Assembly: GCA_014730235.1 (NCBI GenBank)
Contig: WJIO01000240.1
Coordinates: 1 to 50,035 of the forward strand
Direction: 5' to 3'
DNA length: 50,035 nucleotides
Source: Candidatus Poribacteria bacterium
GTDB lineage: Bacteria > Poribacteria > DTPJ01 > WJIO01
Shown: one piece after another, positions 2,965 through 49,036 of the stretch
Layout: each line of letters starts with the position of its first letter
How positions within the stretch are numbered: the first letter of the stretch is position 1
Notes under the pieces: model-generated
What the model was told of the DNA's origin: nothing
The model's database searches: none
The model's input: the letters and a program-made list of their open reading frames with translations, nothing else
Translations under genes and position numbers: made by a program

Positions 2965-5034
2965 ATGGCGGACAGAAAATATGATCAAAATGATTTACGC
3001 AGACGGGCAGAGAAACAAATTGAAGATCAGGAAGCAGACCTGGATAGTATGTCACCCGATGACATAAAGAAGCTGGTCCATGAACTACGGGTACATCAGG
3101 TTGAACTGGAGATGCAAAATGATGAACTTCGCCGGATTCAGCAGGCCCTTCAGGATTCCCGGGACAGTTATTCTGACCTCTATGACTTTGCACCGGTGGG
3201 TTATCTCACTGTAAATGAAAAAGGGATAATACTGAAGGCGAACCTTACCTGTGCAACCATGCTAGGTATAGATAGAGGAAAACTTACAGGTAAACCCCTG
3301 GCCCAGTTTGTATTCAGAGATGAAAGGGATAAATTTTATCTGCATCGCAGGAAACTCTTTGAAGAAAAGAACCGTAAAACCTGCGAATTACGAATGGTAA
3401 GGAAAGACGGCAAACAATTCTATGCCCAGTTTGAAAGTATAATTAATGGGGATAATAACACCGGTGAAGATTGCTGTCAAATAGTGATTAGCGATATAAC
3501 CGAAAAAAAGCAGGCAGAAGAGGCATTAATAGAAAGCGAAAGAAACCTTAAACTGGCCCAGAAAGCCGCCCATATCGGAAGCTGGAAATATTATGTCAAA
3601 ACCAGGGAATTATACTGGTCTGATGAATTATACAGGATATACTGCCTTGATCCTGAGTCCACAAAAGCAAGTCTTGAGCATGGGCTGGGTATGATTCACC
3701 CGGATGATAGGGAGGTAGCTGAAAAAACATTTCGGAACGCTGTTGAAAATGCGATGGAATACGATATTACCTACAGGATTATAAGGCCTGATGGGGTGGT
3801 GCGATTCATAGAGGGTGTCGGGAAGGTTGAAGAAGATGAAAAGGGAGAAATATTAAGCGTATACGGAACCGGCCAGGACATTACTGAACGAAAAAAAATG
3901 GAGGAAGAGCTTCAGAAGATGGAAAAGCTGGAATCCATCGGCATATTGGCCGGCGGTATCGCCCATGACCTGAATAACCTGCTGGTGGGTGTAATTGGCG
4001 GAATATCAATGGCTAAAATGTCTGAGGATAAATCCCGGAGAGATAAAGTCCTGGATAAAGCGGAGAAGGCAGCCATGCGTATAAGAGGCCTGACCACGCA
4101 GTTGCTAACTTTCTCCAAAGGCGGCACGCCAGTCCTGGAAACTGTAGATATAAAACCTCTACTGGAAGAATCAACGCGCTTCGCCCTCAGCGGATCCAAT
4201 GTTATATGCAATTTATCTATTCCCGAAAATATTAAACCGGTGGATATTGACGAGGGGCAGATCAACCAAGTCATAAACAACCTGGTAATAAACGCAAAAC
4301 AGGCCATGTCCAGCGGAGGAAATATCTGGCTGAATTGTGAAAATGTATATATTAGTGAAAAAGATCAGATACTAAAACCGGGAGAGTATGTCAAAATAAC
4401 AATACAGGACGAAGGCATAGGAATTCCCCAGAATCACCTGGATAAAATTTTTGATCCATTTTTCACCACCAAACAGCAAGGAAGTGGCTTAGGACTTACT
4501 GCATCTTATTCCATTATCCAGAAACACAGAGGTTATATTGCAGTAGAATCAGAAATGGGCGAAGGAAGCACGTTTAATATATACTTACCAGCTTCTTATG
4601 ATGTATCCTACGAATCAGAACAGGTTGAGGAAAAAACCTCTATCCGGGGAAATGGGAAAATACTGGTAATGGACGATGAGGATTTTATAAGGGATATGCT
4701 CAGGGATATGCTGAATGAATTAGGTTATACCGCAGCCACAGTTAGTGATGGCTTTGAAGCCATTGGAGCGTACCAACAGGCAATGGACTCAGGAGAACCT
4801 TATGATGCGGTCATATTGGATTTAACTGTTCCCGGAAGCATGGGAGGCCTGGCAACTGTTAAAAATCTCCTGGAAATAGATCCTGAAGTTAAAAGCATTG
4901 TATCCAGCGGCTACTCGGATGACGAAGCAATATCAAAATTCAGGGAACACGGCTTTAAGGGTTTTATCACCAAACCCTATAAGCTAAAAGAATTAGATGA
5001 GGTAATAAACAATATGCTTTCATGCAGAAGTTAG
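2965..5034 (+). CDS. PAS-PAS hybrid sensor histidine kinase with C-terminal receiver domain
   Basis: A 689-residue cytoplasmic signalling kinase with no membrane segment or signal peptide. An N-terminal coiled coil with LVHELRVHQVELEMQN (37-52) leads into two PAS domains (about 65-180 and 195-308). Next come a HisKA domain with phospho-acceptor H334 in GGIAHDLNNLL and an HATPase domain with N-box NNLVINAKQAM (438-448), G1 DEGIGIP (482-488), F-box FDPFFTTK and G2 GSGLGL. A receiver domain follows: acidic pair DDED (570-573), phospho-acceptor D619 in ILDLTVPGSMGG, and K670 in TKPY. All catalytic motifs are intact. AGGGG about 8 nt before the ATG supports the start. It probably works with the upstream CheB-CheR-PAS protein. 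The stop codon overlaps the stop of the convergent downstream gene, so no terminator separates them. Confidence 0.95.
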   Translation: MADRKYDQNDLRRRAEKQIEDQEADLDSMSPDDIKKLVHELRVHQVELEMQNDELRRIQQALQDSRDSYSDLYDFAPVGYLTVNEKGIILKANLTCATMLGIDRGKLTGKPLAQFVFRDERDKFYLHRRKLFEEKNRKTCELRMVRKDGKQFYAQFESIINGDNNTGEDCCQIVISDITEKKQAEEALIESERNLKLAQKAAHIGSWKYYVKTRELYWSDELYRIYCLDPESTKASLEHGLGMIHPDDREVAEKTFRNAVENAMEYDITYRIIRPDGVVRFIEGVGKVEEDEKGEILSVYGTGQDITERKKMEEELQKMEKLESIGILAGGIAHDLNNLLVGVIGGISMAKMSEDKSRRDKVLDKAEKAAMRIRGLTTQLLTFSKGGTPVLETVDIKPLLEESTRFALSGSNVICNLSIPENIKPVDIDEGQINQVINNLVINAKQAMSSGGNIWLNCENVYISEKDQILKPGEYVKITIQDEGIGIPQNHLDKIFDPFFTTKQQGSGLGLTASYSIIQKHRGYIAVESEMGEGSTFNIYLPASYDVSYESEQVEEKTSIRGNGKILVMDDEDFIRDMLRDMLNELGYTAATVSDGFEAIGAYQQAMDSGEPYDAVILDLTVPGSMGGLATVKNLLEIDPEVKSIVSSGYSDDEAISKFREHGFKGFITKPYKLKELDEVINNMLSCRS

Positions 5035-43013: not shown

Positions 43014-44639
43014 ATGAGAAAATATATAATTTCATTTGTTTTACTAATTTCATTATTTTTTGCCTTATCAGTTTATGCCGATAATACACCCGATTGGGTT
43101 AGGAATTTTGATCCTTACCAGAAATATCCGGCGGATAAATATCTGGCTGGTTTTGGTACATCTTCGGGTAAGGATTCGGAGGCTTTTCGCGTCGCCAAAG
43201 ATAATGCTCGGGCTGCGGTTTCCAGGGCTATTGTGGTGGATGTAGACAGCATGATCCGCACAGTTAAGGAAGAGGATGAGGAGAAATTTTCTCAGCATTT
43301 AAGCTCTATAACCCAGAGTTCTACAGCTCTTCAAATCATGGGCTTGGATACAGAAACCTATGCTGAGGACAGCCCCCCCACCGTCTATGCCGTAGCTTAT
43401 GTCAGTAAAGCTGATCTGGGAAGGATTTACGCAAGAAAAAAAACTGATTTGATAGATGAAATATCCCGGATAATTTCCGATGCACAGAAGGCAGAGAGGG
43501 ATTCCAGAAGCATAGACGCGGCTACAAAATACCTGAGCCTTTATCCACTATACCAACAGCTAAAAGAGGCAGAAACTGTATTGCTGGTAGTAGGGGAAGT
43601 GCGCAATATCGAGGACGCTTTTTCGGATTTAAACAAAGAACTGGGTCAGGGAACAGCAAACCCGGTGAAGGCAAAAATCCCCACCTGGACTGAGGTCAGA
43701 AATAAGATAGACGAACTTCTTTCTCAGGATTTAAATACTGTGGAAGATGTGGCGCGCTCCGTGATAATACAATTATCCAAGCAGGCCGGGGATTTAAATG
43801 GACGTATGCTTATTAATTCCTTCTCATATCAGGACACAAAAATGGGCAGTCCTTTTTCCCGCTATTTTAAGTCGGCTCTGGAAAACCAGTTGGTCCTTAT
43901 GTCCAATCTGAAATGGGATACGGTCAAGAAAGCAGAGGATTTTACCCCCAAATCTGCTAATATTACGGCTGACCTGGCCAAGGCTTCTGGTGCCCAGTGG
44001 GTGCTTTCGGGAACTTACTGGGAACAAGGGGATAAGATCAAGATAATGGCATCCCTAAACGAAGCTGAGACCAGCAAGATTCTGGCCGGGGCTGATGTGG
44101 TTTTTGATAAATCTATGCTGGAAGCGGCGCACTTAAGCGTAAAACCCCAGAACTATCAGCAGGCTATACAGGAGCAAGAGGCCTTTAAGGAAGACCAGAT
44201 AATAAGCGGTAACCTGACTCTAGAGGTATGGACTAACAAGGGGAATGAGGATTTGATATTCAACGAAGGCGAGGTAATGAAAGTCCGGGTTCGAGTGAAT
44301 AGGCCAGCTTATGTGAGACTTCTTTATATCATCGCTGACGGCAAGCGATCCCTGCTTTATGATAACTACTATATAGACAGTTCCAGAGTTAATCATGTTG
44401 TGGAAATCCCCGAAGAATTCGAGTGTGCGCCCCCCTTTGGTGCAGAAATGCTGGTGGCAATCGCCCGGACAACGGAATTTCCGCCTATTGAAGTTATAAA
44501 TGTGGATGGATACGATTTTCTGGCTACTGATACGGCAAAAAATGCGGCGTACCAGTCCCGGGGTATGATCAGGAAAAAGCAGAAACCTGAAGACATCCAG
44601 CAGACTGAGGCTAAGATTGTAATTACAACAATGGAATAG
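43014..44639 (+). CDS. LPP20/DUF4384-domain exported protein
   Basis: A 541-residue exported protein with signal peptide ISFVLLISLFFALSVYA, without lipobox. Residues about 25-160 are an LPP20-like domain (PDWVRNFDPYQKYPADKYLAGFG, DNARAAVSRAI). A central region has a curli-assembly or TolB-like nucleotide-free alpha/beta pattern (GRMLINSFSYQDTKMGSPFS, GAQWVLSGTYWEQGDKIKI). The C-terminal 130 residues match DUF4384 (LTLEVWTNKGNEDLIFNEGEVMKVRVRVNRPAYVRLLYI-type sequence, here 400-440). DUF4384 proteins are periplasmic or envelope proteins of unknown role. AAAGGGG lies about 9 nt before the ATG. The 3' end overlaps the convergent primase-like gene by 17 bp. Confidence 0.8.
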   Translation: MRKYIISFVLLISLFFALSVYADNTPDWVRNFDPYQKYPADKYLAGFGTSSGKDSEAFRVAKDNARAAVSRAIVVDVDSMIRTVKEEDEEKFSQHLSSITQSSTALQIMGLDTETYAEDSPPTVYAVAYVSKADLGRIYARKKTDLIDEISRIISDAQKAERDSRSIDAATKYLSLYPLYQQLKEAETVLLVVGEVRNIEDAFSDLNKELGQGTANPVKAKIPTWTEVRNKIDELLSQDLNTVEDVARSVIIQLSKQAGDLNGRMLINSFSYQDTKMGSPFSRYFKSALENQLVLMSNLKWDTVKKAEDFTPKSANITADLAKASGAQWVLSGTYWEQGDKIKIMASLNEAETSKILAGADVVFDKSMLEAAHLSVKPQNYQQAIQEQEAFKEDQIISGNLTLEVWTNKGNEDLIFNEGEVMKVRVRVNRPAYVRLLYIIADGKRSLLYDNYYIDSSRVNHVVEIPEEFECAPPFGAEMLVAIARTTEFPPIEVINVDGYDFLATDTAKNAAYQSRGMIRKKQKPEDIQQTEAKIVITTME

Positions 44640-46611
44640 AAACCGGTTTCCATTTATTTGATAGGACGTATTTCAGAAATCTTTGGGCCTGGAAAACTGC
44701 GTCATGGGGTATTCTTGTCCATTCTTCAGATACTGAAAACTGATCAGGTTTGGCCATTTCCGGAGAGAAATTTTCCAGATTCCAGGGCATTGTTATTATA
44801 CATGCTTTTTTGGTTTTTGGATTCAAGGAATAAGCCGGTCTGGTGTAGCCATAGGGATTTATAATCATTATGCAGTCATTGCCATTGACTTGCGGTATCT
44901 TTCTTAATCCTGAGTTAAGGCCGGAGGCTAACTGATTCATCTGAAGGGCTGTGGGCTGGCCATCCAACTGTTTTGGTAGGGCTTCTGCTGGTATAACAAT
45001 TTCCAAAATATTAGTTCCATCATATTTTATAAAGCAGAATACCTCATACCTTAATAATAAATTTGTTAAAATTTGAGTCAGTTCTACCGCAGATTCGTAA
45101 TCGCTGCGGGAAAAATCTATCTCAATGCCTATATCGCAGGCTATCAATAACCTGTCTGCCGGATTGTAAATTCCGCGGGTGCATTGAAATCCCTTCCATT
45201 TTGGATTTTGGGATTTAAATATTGCTTCTAATACAGGTATATCCTCGGTTTTTTGTAGTATGTAGTGGGATTTTTGAGGTGACGCCCTTAAGAACCTACC
45301 GGCGGAGTAGTTGAAAATTGCATCCTGAATTTCGGTTCTCTGGTAATAGCTTATACCATCTTCTCCGGGAGATCGATGCCATTGTTTTTGCAGTTCGATA
45401 AAATTTACAGAAAACACGTCAGCCGCTGCCTTTAAGTCCACCCTCCTTCCCGCATCTTTCCAATTATTCAGCATATCCAAAGCTTCCTGCATGTTTTCAT
45501 CGGGTTTTTGTAATTTTTTATCCGAGGCCAGGATTTCCCTACCGTTTCTTATTACCTTTGTATACCAATCATTATCCAGGAAAGTGCGTATTTTTCGGGG
45601 AACTTTGGGAGGTTTCCATTTATGTTGAGTTTTGCTTATATCCACACCAGTAACAAGGCGAGGGTAATTTTGCAAAACCTGTTGAAGAAATTCCCGACCT
45701 CTTTCGGATGCATCTTCGGGGATTTCCCACCAGTTTTTCATAATCTTTATGTTATTCAGGGTTGCTTTAGAGGGGTTAAAGCTGTCAAACTCCTCTGGTT
45801 TTATGGGCATGCTTATTTTGCCACCTAATTCGTGTATGGAGTAGACTAATCGCAGGAAATGATTGGGTTTCCAAAGCGCCCCGTCCAAAAGCCCGGGGTT
45901 CTTCATGTGGTTCTTGACAAAACTGTAGACTGCTTCTCGAAATTCTTTCCGACTTAAATCCATATCTTTGGGGGGTATAATGGCTTCTCCGGGAACGATA
46001 ATGTGAGGGCTGGTGCTGCCACTGTATTTAACGAAGAAAGGCAAACCTAATTTCAGGAACAATTTTACAATTGGACGGGCGGCGTTGAAGGCGGCAGTCC
46101 AACTTTTCTTAAAATCAGGCTCAAACACAAAATCACATATTTTTTTACCGTCTTCGTTATAACGCACTACAGTTCCATGAAGGGAGGGCCATCTTACACC
46201 TTTGGGTCTGGTATAATAAAACATAAGGGGAAGTACGTCTTCCGGTTCGCGAAGATGAGTAAACATGGGTTTGAAGTTTCTTAAAACTGTGATATATCGT
46301 CCATTGGCATAGCGAAACATCTCCCACTGAACGTCAGGACGGGCATAATAGGCAACGATTTTTTCCTTTTCCTTAAGCTGAGAGAAATCAGGTGCGGCGA
46401 AGCTTTGTGTTGGGTCAGTTTCCTGAGCGGCTATGGCGTGCTGAAAGCTCATCCTTCGGGAATAGGGTATGTCTTTTATTATTTCAACAGATTTATTTGA
46501 AAACACCCCAAGCTTCCGGGCATATTCCTGAGCTTCGGCATTGTATTTTGACACAATCTGGGTGTATAAGCTGTCCTGAAGTTTTTTACTTTTTCTGCGC
46601 TTTTTACTCAT
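44623..46611 (-). CDS. Tandem-duplicated archaeo-eukaryotic primase (PriS)-like protein
   Basis: A 662-residue cytoplasmic protein with no signal or membrane segment. Residues 87-312 follow the archaeal primase small-subunit order: YYARPDVQWEMFRYANGR (88-105), a strand with E164-P-D166 at the place of the D-x-D metal motif (CDFVFEPDF), VKYSGSTSPHIIVP with H203 (194-207), and RLVYSIHELGGKISMP (254-269). Residues 421-650 repeat the order: SYYQRTEIQDAIFNYSAGR, CDIGIEIDF (E497, D499), IKYDGTNILEIVIP (His lost) and RPAYSLNPKTKKACIITMP. The third catalytic acid (before the RxxYS segment) is not evident in either half. The middle (313-415) is a linker with basic patches, and the N-terminus is Lys/Arg-rich (KKRRKSKK). 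It may bind nucleotides or nucleic acid, but activity is uncertain. It overlaps the upstream glycosyltransferase gene by 8 bp. Confidence 0.7.
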   Translation of the reverse strand: MSKKRRKSKKLQDSLYTQIVSKYNAEAQEYARKLGVFSNKSVEIIKDIPYSRRMSFQHAIAAQETDPTQSFAAPDFSQLKEKEKIVAYYARPDVQWEMFRYANGRYITVLRNFKPMFTHLREPEDVLPLMFYYTRPKGVRWPSLHGTVVRYNEDGKKICDFVFEPDFKKSWTAAFNAARPIVKLFLKLGLPFFVKYSGSTSPHIIVPGEAIIPPKDMDLSRKEFREAVYSFVKNHMKNPGLLDGALWKPNHFLRLVYSIHELGGKISMPIKPEEFDSFNPSKATLNNIKIMKNWWEIPEDASERGREFLQQVLQNYPRLVTGVDISKTQHKWKPPKVPRKIRTFLDNDWYTKVIRNGREILASDKKLQKPDENMQEALDMLNNWKDAGRRVDLKAAADVFSVNFIELQKQWHRSPGEDGISYYQRTEIQDAIFNYSAGRFLRASPQKSHYILQKTEDIPVLEAIFKSQNPKWKGFQCTRGIYNPADRLLIACDIGIEIDFSRSDYESAVELTQILTNLLLRYEVFCFIKYDGTNILEIVIPAEALPKQLDGQPTALQMNQLASGLNSGLRKIPQVNGNDCIMIINPYGYTRPAYSLNPKTKKACIITMPWNLENFSPEMAKPDQFSVSEEWTRIPHDAVFQAQRFLKYVLSNKWKPVSIPLL

Positions 46612-49036
46612 GATCTGTCTCTTGAATCTTTTTGATTATTATGCAGTCAACCCCAAAGAGGTAGTTACTGGAACTTTTATTTTTGTCTACCACCAGAAAT
46701 TTGAACCGGTTGTCACCCTTAATCAGATTAACTGTGCCAAACTCTACTATGCCAGTATATATGACGTTTTTGTTGTAAGTATCCAACAGTTCGCCCAAGG
46801 GTTTTCCATTAACTATCAGTTGTATCCGGGCAAAATTCGGAGCTTTGGTAAAACAAGCTGAGATTTCGTAATTCCCCACTTCATCCACATAAACAGGCAG
46901 AACTATGTAATCTCCCGGACTGTTTGTGTATACGAGAACTTGAGCCTCACTGCTCCATTGAAGCCCAAATCCCAGCATATTTTGTAAGCCGTGACCATCT
47001 CCAGAGGATTCTATGACTTCCAGGGATTCGGCTTCTATAAGTGCTTGCCCCTTTGCTGGCACTTCCAGCTTTTGTATATTAGATCCGTTAGCTCTATAAT
47101 ATTCTCTATGGGGATAATATTCCATCATTTTTCGATTTTTTGTAGCGCCCAGGTCCCGTACATAGATAATATCACCGTCAAAAGTTGGTGAATTTGCCGG
47201 TAAAACAGATCCGTAATAGGACTGGACAAAGATCACCGCGTTTTTTATGCCTCTACTTTTTACTGCTTTTAATACGGAGGCGTTTACCCCCCAGTAGTTG
47301 TTAGAATAGATATTTACCAAAGGTTTTATATGGAAACTAAGGCCGATAGCAAAGCAAAATATTATTACAAAACCAACGGTTCCCTTGCTTTTAGCTAAAG
47401 AAGTTTTTAAACCAAAAATGTCGTTAACCAGTTTTGGTGTTCTTATAAGGCTTCTGGATGTCAGAATTACCGTTGCTAGAGTGGATTCATACATAAACCG
47501 GGGGCCAAAACACCAGTCCTGAAACCAATAAAAGAAATATGAAATTGACAAACACCAGAAAGCACCTAAAAGCATGTAATCCCATTTGTTCCTAGTCATG
47601 GAAATGAAAAGCAAAAACATGAAGAACAGGCATGGTATGGGCCACTCGAATAGATATTTGTTGAGTGCGTTCAGATTATTCAGATTCTGACGTAAACCCT
47701 TAGAAGGTGTATGAGGTTCACCCCAACCACTGTGACCGAATCCTGGATTATGGCCTTCGCCGTGTTTGACAACATAACCAAATAGCATGGCATCTCCGGT
47801 GGTGAGGTAATTGAATAACAGAAGTATGAACAAAAAGACCAGTATTGTTATCAGCATAATAGATAATCTGACTATATACTCTCTGAAACGTTTTATCAAG
47901 AGTACAAGGGCATAAATAGCAAAGGGAAAGCATATTCCCAGAGATGTCAATGGTCTTCCATTCAGGGCCATTCCCAAAGCTGATCCTGCCACCAGGGGAT
48001 GCCAGTTTTTTCTGTATTTAACCGACCTGGCAAAGAAAAGCACGAAGAGGGAAAGCCAGAATAACGCGCTGGCATGGGACATAAACTCCGACGACATGAA
48101 AATTATAAAAGGAGAAAATAAGCCCAGTAAAGCCGATAGTCTTCCGGTTTTTTCGTCATACAATTCCTTCCCCAAAAAATAAAATACAACAACTGTTAAA
48201 GAACCCAACAAAGGATTTATTATCCAGGGAATACCCATCATTACCCCGAACATCATGAGAAATGAATGACCTGGCGGGTATTCCGAATACCAGCGACCAT
48301 CGTTAATCATGTGGGTAAAATCAAAAAATTCTTTGTATTTATGGGATGGAACTGTGAGTTTTCCAATAGAGAAAATCTTACCATGAAAAACCTGATCCAG
48401 ACTATCCTGTATATGGGGTATATGCTCAAAAAGGTAATATGAACCAAGATTTGTGGCTGTAAACGCCAGGGCAAATACGATTAGCAAAAATAACTCAATC
48501 CTCATATTGAGTATAAAATTAACGATATTGACTGAGACTTTATAGATAAACTTTCCCGGACTTCGTCGGCCTATCGAGTTTACCAGAGGAAAAATGCCCA
48601 CTGAGCAAAACAACACGCCTAAACCTCCTAATGTGGTATATAAGACTATAGGCATCCCGCTTTGGGTGGGTTTTAGGGTAAAAACGAACATGGCCATTGA
48701 TACTAAAAAAGCGGGTACATATTTGGGATTTTTCAGATAATTTATGAAGACTTTTCTGCCCGATGAGGTTATAATTGTAAGACCAATGAGACATAAACCT
48801 GTTGTTTTAAATATTTTTTTGGCTGATGTTTTGATAGGAAACTGGACTGGCCCTATGTTAATATCTTTTTTTATGGGAAAGCTTATTGTGATTTCCTGAC
48901 CTTTGTCGCCTTTTATGGAGACAAGGGACATATTCCAAGGGTCTTTGTGGGGGATAGTTATCAGCAAAAGTAGTATGCCAGCAATCAACAATATCAATCG
49001 GCTGGCAAAGGTGAATATATATCCAATAATTTTCAT
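46604..49036 (-). CDS. GT39/PMT-like membrane glycosyltransferase with C-terminal carbohydrate-binding-like domain
   Basis: An 810-residue inner-membrane protein with about a dozen hydrophobic helices. The signature YSEYPPGHSFLMMFGVMMGIPWIINPLLGSL (about 248-278) and later GMALNGRPLTSLG are typical of GT39/ArnT-type lipid-linked sugar transferases. The expected early acidic pair is not obvious because of an unusual 190-residue N-terminal region. The last 145 residues are soluble and beta-rich (LIEAESLEVIESSGDG, GDYIVLPVYVDEVGNYEISA, IQLIVNGKPLG), like a CBM6-type module facing the periplasm. It may glycosylate exported proteins or lipids. It is first in a two-gene operon with the primase-like gene (8 bp overlap), an unexpected pairing. 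Confidence 0.82.
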   Translation of the reverse strand: MKIIGYIFTFASRLILLIAGILLLLITIPHKDPWNMSLVSIKGDKGQEITISFPIKKDINIGPVQFPIKTSAKKIFKTTGLCLIGLTIITSSGRKVFINYLKNPKYVPAFLVSMAMFVFTLKPTQSGMPIVLYTTLGGLGVLFCSVGIFPLVNSIGRRSPGKFIYKVSVNIVNFILNMRIELFLLIVFALAFTATNLGSYYLFEHIPHIQDSLDQVFHGKIFSIGKLTVPSHKYKEFFDFTHMINDGRWYSEYPPGHSFLMMFGVMMGIPWIINPLLGSLTVVVFYFLGKELYDEKTGRLSALLGLFSPFIIFMSSEFMSHASALFWLSLFVLFFARSVKYRKNWHPLVAGSALGMALNGRPLTSLGICFPFAIYALVLLIKRFREYIVRLSIMLITILVFLFILLLFNYLTTGDAMLFGYVVKHGEGHNPGFGHSGWGEPHTPSKGLRQNLNNLNALNKYLFEWPIPCLFFMFLLFISMTRNKWDYMLLGAFWCLSISYFFYWFQDWCFGPRFMYESTLATVILTSRSLIRTPKLVNDIFGLKTSLAKSKGTVGFVIIFCFAIGLSFHIKPLVNIYSNNYWGVNASVLKAVKSRGIKNAVIFVQSYYGSVLPANSPTFDGDIIYVRDLGATKNRKMMEYYPHREYYRANGSNIQKLEVPAKGQALIEAESLEVIESSGDGHGLQNMLGFGLQWSSEAQVLVYTNSPGDYIVLPVYVDEVGNYEISACFTKAPNFARIQLIVNGKPLGELLDTYNKNVIYTGIVEFGTVNLIKGDNRFKFLVVDKNKSSSNYLFGVDCIIIKKIQETDHE

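Follow-up and report, generated by a model that had tools for sequence, protein, structure and literature searches.

How a single bacterial protein comes to contain two modules of the archaeo-eukaryotic primase (AEP) type, and what each of them does, is the question raised by a gene of Candidatus Poribacteria. The gene lies in a 50,035-nucleotide stretch of contig WJIO01000240.1, which is called the window here. An ORF check of the stretch found its 662-codon reading frame intact on the minus strand (Table 1). Known AEPs have a single catalytic module, which is joined to helicases, PriL, nucleases or ligases. A literature search, incomplete in coverage, returned no description of a protein with two tandem AEP modules of which one is inactivated.

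The anatomy, tandem AEP modules with one of them degenerate, is well supported. The best overall explanation, to which a probability of roughly 0.6 is given, is a stand-alone AEP-superfamily primase-polymerase that arose by internal duplication, in which an active module 1 and a dead, DNA-holding or architectural module 2 would serve in repair or gap filling.

Table 1. Positions of the tandem AEP gene, its parts, the adjacent gene and the gene pairs of single-module relatives
Feature	Position	Strand	Basis
Tandem AEP (primase-polymerase) gene, 662 aa	44623..46611	-	ORF; family; fold
N-terminal extension, residues 1-77, start MSKKRRKSKK, predicted helical	46381..46611	-	Alignment; model
Module 1, residues 78-322, AEP polymerase, catalytic set complete	45646..46380	-	Profiles; fold
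Module 1 motif I, E164-P-D166, ExD metal-binding acids	46114..46122	-	Aligned with primase DxD
Module 1 motif II His, H203 (SGSTSPH)	46003..46005	-	Family-invariant; aligned with LigD SGGKGMH His
Module 1 motif III Asp, D243	45883..45885	-	Invariant; aligned with PriS 'LD' and DPANN primase Asp
Linker, residues 323-411, disordered then predicted helices	45379..45645	-	Model
Module 2, residues 412-655, catalytically degenerate AEP module	44647..45378	-	Profile; fold; residue columns
Module 2 motif I remnant, E497-I-D499	45115..45123	-	Retained here, not in all relatives
E537 in module 2, motif II His position	45001..45003	-	Alignment
PMT_2-type membrane glycosyltransferase, 810 aa, upstream of AEP gene	46604..49036	-	ORF; stop overlaps AEP start
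Single-module AEP and 500-610 aa gene pairs	L027:5448-8053, L032:7961-10380, L033:3813-6433, L031:1616-4044		

Homology of the two modules

The original prediction had seen the same order of primase motifs in both halves and read it as an internal duplication. Profile comparison showed this to be a real repeat of two homologous modules, each of about 245 residues. A profile built from module 1 sequences and single-module relatives detected the window protein's second module at E=1.1e-34; 1,000 shuffled module-2 sequences gave 0.63 at best. The same profile detected the second modules in the other duplicated proteins (1.7e-42, 6.6e-14 and 4.9e-5), and hhalign aligned module 1 with module 2 at E=1e-33 over 222 columns. 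Sequence comparison of the N-terminal extension with the inter-module linker gave nothing clearly above shuffled controls, so duplication is claimed for the AEP modules only. The basic start of the extension (MSKKRR) recurs as MAKKRR or MAKRRR in the aligned relatives, and the predicted helices of the linker lie inside the range matching LigD polymerase domains, for which the aligned ranges begin at residues 351-357.

Family assignment and predicted fold

Curated libraries recognise the 662-residue protein weakly. The Pfam family PF21686 (LigD_Prim-Pol) matched module 1 at E=2.8e-5 with 24.2 bits, under its 27.4-bit cut-off; TIGR02778 (ligD_pol) matched at 5e-6 with 26.4 bits, where the cut-off is 214.7; and TIGR00335 (PriS) gave a match of 0.013 over residues 250-285. 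A Pfam search with module 2 alone gave no match, and this module was revealed only by profiles built from the family itself. The module 1 profile finds primases of DPANN archaea at 5e-33 to 8e-21 and the module 2 profile finds them at 4e-17 and weaker, while hhalign against a DPANN primase profile gave 5e-35 for module 1 and 3e-18 for module 2. Each half is thus separately related to AEP/PriS proteins, as had been proposed, and the predicted folds agree. With the single sequence, the PDB search also gave matches to MHC chains, which were short and were rejected as chance.

The DPANN primases, which are PriS proteins and in several cases PriL-fused, are closest in sequence among the relatives found outside the phylum. 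They share with the window protein the YYSRxDVQ start and an H-x-LR-x-PYSL-x-x-x-TG motif, and differ in having D-x-D as the catalytic pair where the window protein has E-x-D. All four that were checked are PriS by Pfam; three have a PriL-like region and none has a second AEP module.

Structure prediction and superposition placed both modules with the LigD polymerase (LigD Pol) and Prim-PolC, the PF21686 domain, as best fold match (Z 17-18). Module 2 modelled alone reached a pLDDT of 85, with LigD polymerase and Prim-PolC as top PDB matches (Prim-PolC 6sa0: Z 18.1, rmsd 2.9, 227 residues), from an alignment whose single-module relatives bias the model toward the AEP fold. The full-length model, made with few module-2 rows in its alignment, agreed with this fold. 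In that model (pLDDT 79) residues 17-322 and 352-657 match LigD Pol/Prim-PolC separately at Z about 18, and the pTM of 0.50 makes the placement of the modules relative to one another unreliable. In the structural comparison module 1 matched Prim-PolC best (Z 17.9 over residues 17-322), and like Prim-PolC and LigD Pol it has no visible cysteine-rich zinc-binding insertion. Both modules are therefore predicted to have the AEP-superfamily fold of primases and LigD-type polymerases; CAPP structures are weaker matches, at Z about 12 compared with about 18. Unlike LigD and Prim-PolC, the window protein has two modules per chain, the second of them dead, and scores below the PF21686 cut-off. It also differs from LigD in having neither a ligase nor a phosphoesterase domain, in a genome with no detected Ku.

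Catalytic residues

Alignment with primases assigns E164, D166, H203 and D243 as the catalytic set of module 1, complete for an AEP. Compared column by column, E/D164, D166, H203 and D243 occur in every module 1 and in every single-module relative outside the HEAT-repeat fusions, and the four DPANN primases have D, D, H and D at the same columns. The original prediction that the first half keeps an acidic pair and the motif II His was borne out, but the third acid that it had missed in this half is D243. This residue is invariant in the close family, is aligned with an Asp in the four DPANN primases and is profile-aligned to the 'LD' of motif III in vertebrate PriS. It stands 14 residues before a conserved Tyr-Ser, a spacing also found in Pseudomonas aeruginosa LigD; as HMMER aligns LigD with a gap of one residue, this last correspondence rests on the spacing. 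The motif II/III region as a whole is profile-aligned to P. aeruginosa LigD at 2.6e-6. Since the third acid is present, module 1 should be an active polymerase, a template-directed nucleotidyl transferase of the LigD-Pol/Prim-PolC/PriS type, on the assumption that the Glu which replaces Asp as first acid in this branch works in catalysis.

Module 2 lacks the AEP catalytic set. As had been seen in the window protein, where E537 takes its place, the motif II His is missing, and it is lost in all five copies, with E, N, Y, R or Y at its position. The third acid, rightly described as not evident in this half, is likewise absent from 5/5 copies, which have C, C, H, K or H there. Equivalents of H145 and H251 are lost in all five together with those of H203 and D243, and only some module 2s have intact motif I acids, with S, T and N as replacements. 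The window copy retains E497, D499 and the motif III-region Arg. A derived Cys is common to the five module 2s where all module 1s have Ser267.

Relatives, phylogeny and selection

Matches were found in 7 of 84 Poribacteria genomes. Named relatives among bacteria are all Candidatus Poribacteria, and the other matches in the genome collection are far weaker and nearly all from DPANN archaea, in a scan whose patterns came from the window protein's own family and which may miss divergent tandem AEPs elsewhere. The source genome has three copies: the window protein, C89 (duplicated, 621 aa, 32% identical to the window protein over the match) and C47, which is cut at its 3' end by the contig end, can be read for 334 aa and may be duplicated too. 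Homologues with the same duplication, whose search had been suggested with the original prediction, comprise four complete proteins (window, C89, G080:C234 and G071:C303) and a fifth, G080:C152 (L030:6934-8729), in which the modules lie in different frames through a frameshift or an assembly error; all are from Poribacteria. As far as seen, the tandem AEP architecture is new within a known superfamily and limited to this phylum. Viral contigs, phages and plasmids were searched and held no relatives of the 662-residue protein, which leaves a mobile-element origin without support.

Single-module relatives and HEAT-repeat fusions also exist. In L034, L035, L036 and L028 the AEP module is N-terminal in a longer protein, which has recognisable HEAT repeats in L034 and L035 and a weak PARP-like insert in L034. 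The C89 copy has a PARP-like gene (L022:4154-4978) nearby. Four Poribacteria genomes have a conserved pair (Table 1), a single-module AEP gene with a gene of 500-610 aa directly after it; a C-terminal toastrack domain (DUF4097) scored near or above the cut-off in three of these partners, the fourth being truncated by a contig end.

A maximum-likelihood tree unites the module 2s in one group (89/63) on long branches and joins the module 1s to the E-x-D single-module proteins (95/92). This is most simply read as a single duplication, after which module 2 changed fast. The evidence for a single duplication is moderate because of the long branches and is strengthened by the shared Cys. The original prediction of a decaying second module held for the loss of catalytic residues and not for simple decay, given a dN/dS of about 0.14. 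In a near pair of module 2s, which carries most weight, dN/dS was 0.14 (21.5 synonymous and 10.5 nonsynonymous changes over 195 codons). It was also 0.14 in a distant pair, which is near synonymous saturation and has one frameshifted member, and was similar for module 1 at 0.16. Module 2 thus appears to be under purifying selection.

Genomic context

The neighbours of the window gene encode LPP20/DUF4384 and PMT_2 proteins. The stop of the PMT_2 glycosyltransferase gene overlaps the AEP start (ATGA), and the two are probably on one transcript; this neighbour is not conserved in the relatives. Comparison of the duplicated loci revealed no common gene neighbourhood and no conserved operon partner, the other duplicated genes being near RsgA-like (by eye), PARP-like, DUF6785 and DSHCT helicase genes. 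The C47 copy (L023:1-3939) is a single case in which type I-D cas7d-cas5d-cas6d genes lie divergently about 170 bp away.

The genome has DnaG. Searches of the genome, which is about 92% complete, gave no match to Ku, the partner in LigD/NHEJ systems, none to PF04104 for PriL, the partner of a replicative PriS, and no LigD polymerase domain above the cut-off. With DnaG present and these absent, chromosome replication need not depend on the tandem AEP. The presence of DnaG and the undetected Ku fit a non-replicative role, such as the repair, signalling or defence that the original prediction had suggested, without pinpointing it.

Proposed function and alternatives

LigD polymerase domains work in pairs on a break: each holds one of the DNA ends, and the primer comes in trans from the partner (PMC3898472). 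Prim-PolC fills gaps of 1-3 nt with ribonucleotides (PMC5663958). From these precedents we infer that such a pair has been put in one chain, with catalysis kept in the first half only. The 662-residue protein would most likely act at damaged or broken DNA to fill short gaps or extend primers, and module 1 would carry out the template-directed nucleotidyl transfer. Module 2 would be a pseudo-polymerase, its fold retained, its catalytic residues gone and selection keeping it as a DNA-holding or architectural partner that may grip the template, the downstream 5' end or the opposite DNA end. A single chain could then perform the task that takes a pair of LigD polymerase domains across a break. The activity, the substrate and the ligand of module 2 are proposed by analogy with these systems, and the gene context, which varies among the duplicated loci, does not fix the pathway. 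A more specific and tentative version is a 'pre-paired' repair polymerase, an intramolecular AEP dimer whose dead module would bridge the second DNA end in a Ku-independent, Poribacteria-specific form of end joining or gap filling.

Eukaryotic DNA polymerase epsilon, a B-family enzyme, has an active polymerase and, in tandem behind it, an inactivated one turned structural. It is an analogue in way of working, its B-family fold and sequence being unrelated to AEP. The tandem AEP would be a prokaryotic, primase-fold parallel to this active/inactive pair, and a simple system in which to ask what polymerase folds do after polymerising stops.

A role in defence, in which the protein would be a CAPP-like primase-polymerase working with Cas proteins and the window copy a dispersed paralogue, is suggested by C47, the close relative that adjoins cas genes in the same genome, and by a reverse transcriptase-AEP fusion directly upstream of a cas1-like gene there. 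CAPPs are likewise AEP-fold proteins of bacteria; they are implicated in CRISPR adaptation, have TPR, RT, helicase or PriCT partners and occur in cas operons, mostly of type III (PMC8211822). The window protein differs from them in these partners and in its locus, which is no cas operon: the window contig holds no CRISPR-like array, the window protein has no PADLOC match, and cas genes are absent from the neighbours scanned around the other duplicated copies. With a weaker fold match to CAPPs than to LigD/Prim-PolC as well, this explanation is considered unlikely.

The remaining alternatives concern module 2. It could regulate or inhibit module 1, or sense a nucleotide, instead of holding DNA, and its constraint without an intact catalytic set, together with the kept fold and the partly kept metal-binding residues of the window copy (E497/D499 and the motif III-region Arg), is consistent with this. 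Nucleotide sensing would not be general, however, as the retained acids vary among module 2s (S, T, N), and the proposal is doubtful. The long branches, the lost catalytic motifs and the frameshift that splits G080:C152 between its modules would also suit a functionless, decaying passenger. This last reading is disfavoured and very improbable, given the low dN/dS in two pairs and the persistence of module 2 in four proteins of three genera at about 30% identity.

Additional observations

The reverse transcriptase of the source genome mentioned above (L116; G000:C357, match 3636-3815) is fused to another primase-polymerase domain, and with its cas1-like neighbour, assigned by eye, resembles RT-type CAPP adaptation modules. 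Elsewhere in the window, at 1860-2048, an imperfect 21-nt repeat encodes a heptad-like EELxxTNEEL coiled coil within a long ORF, which is probably a signalling protein.
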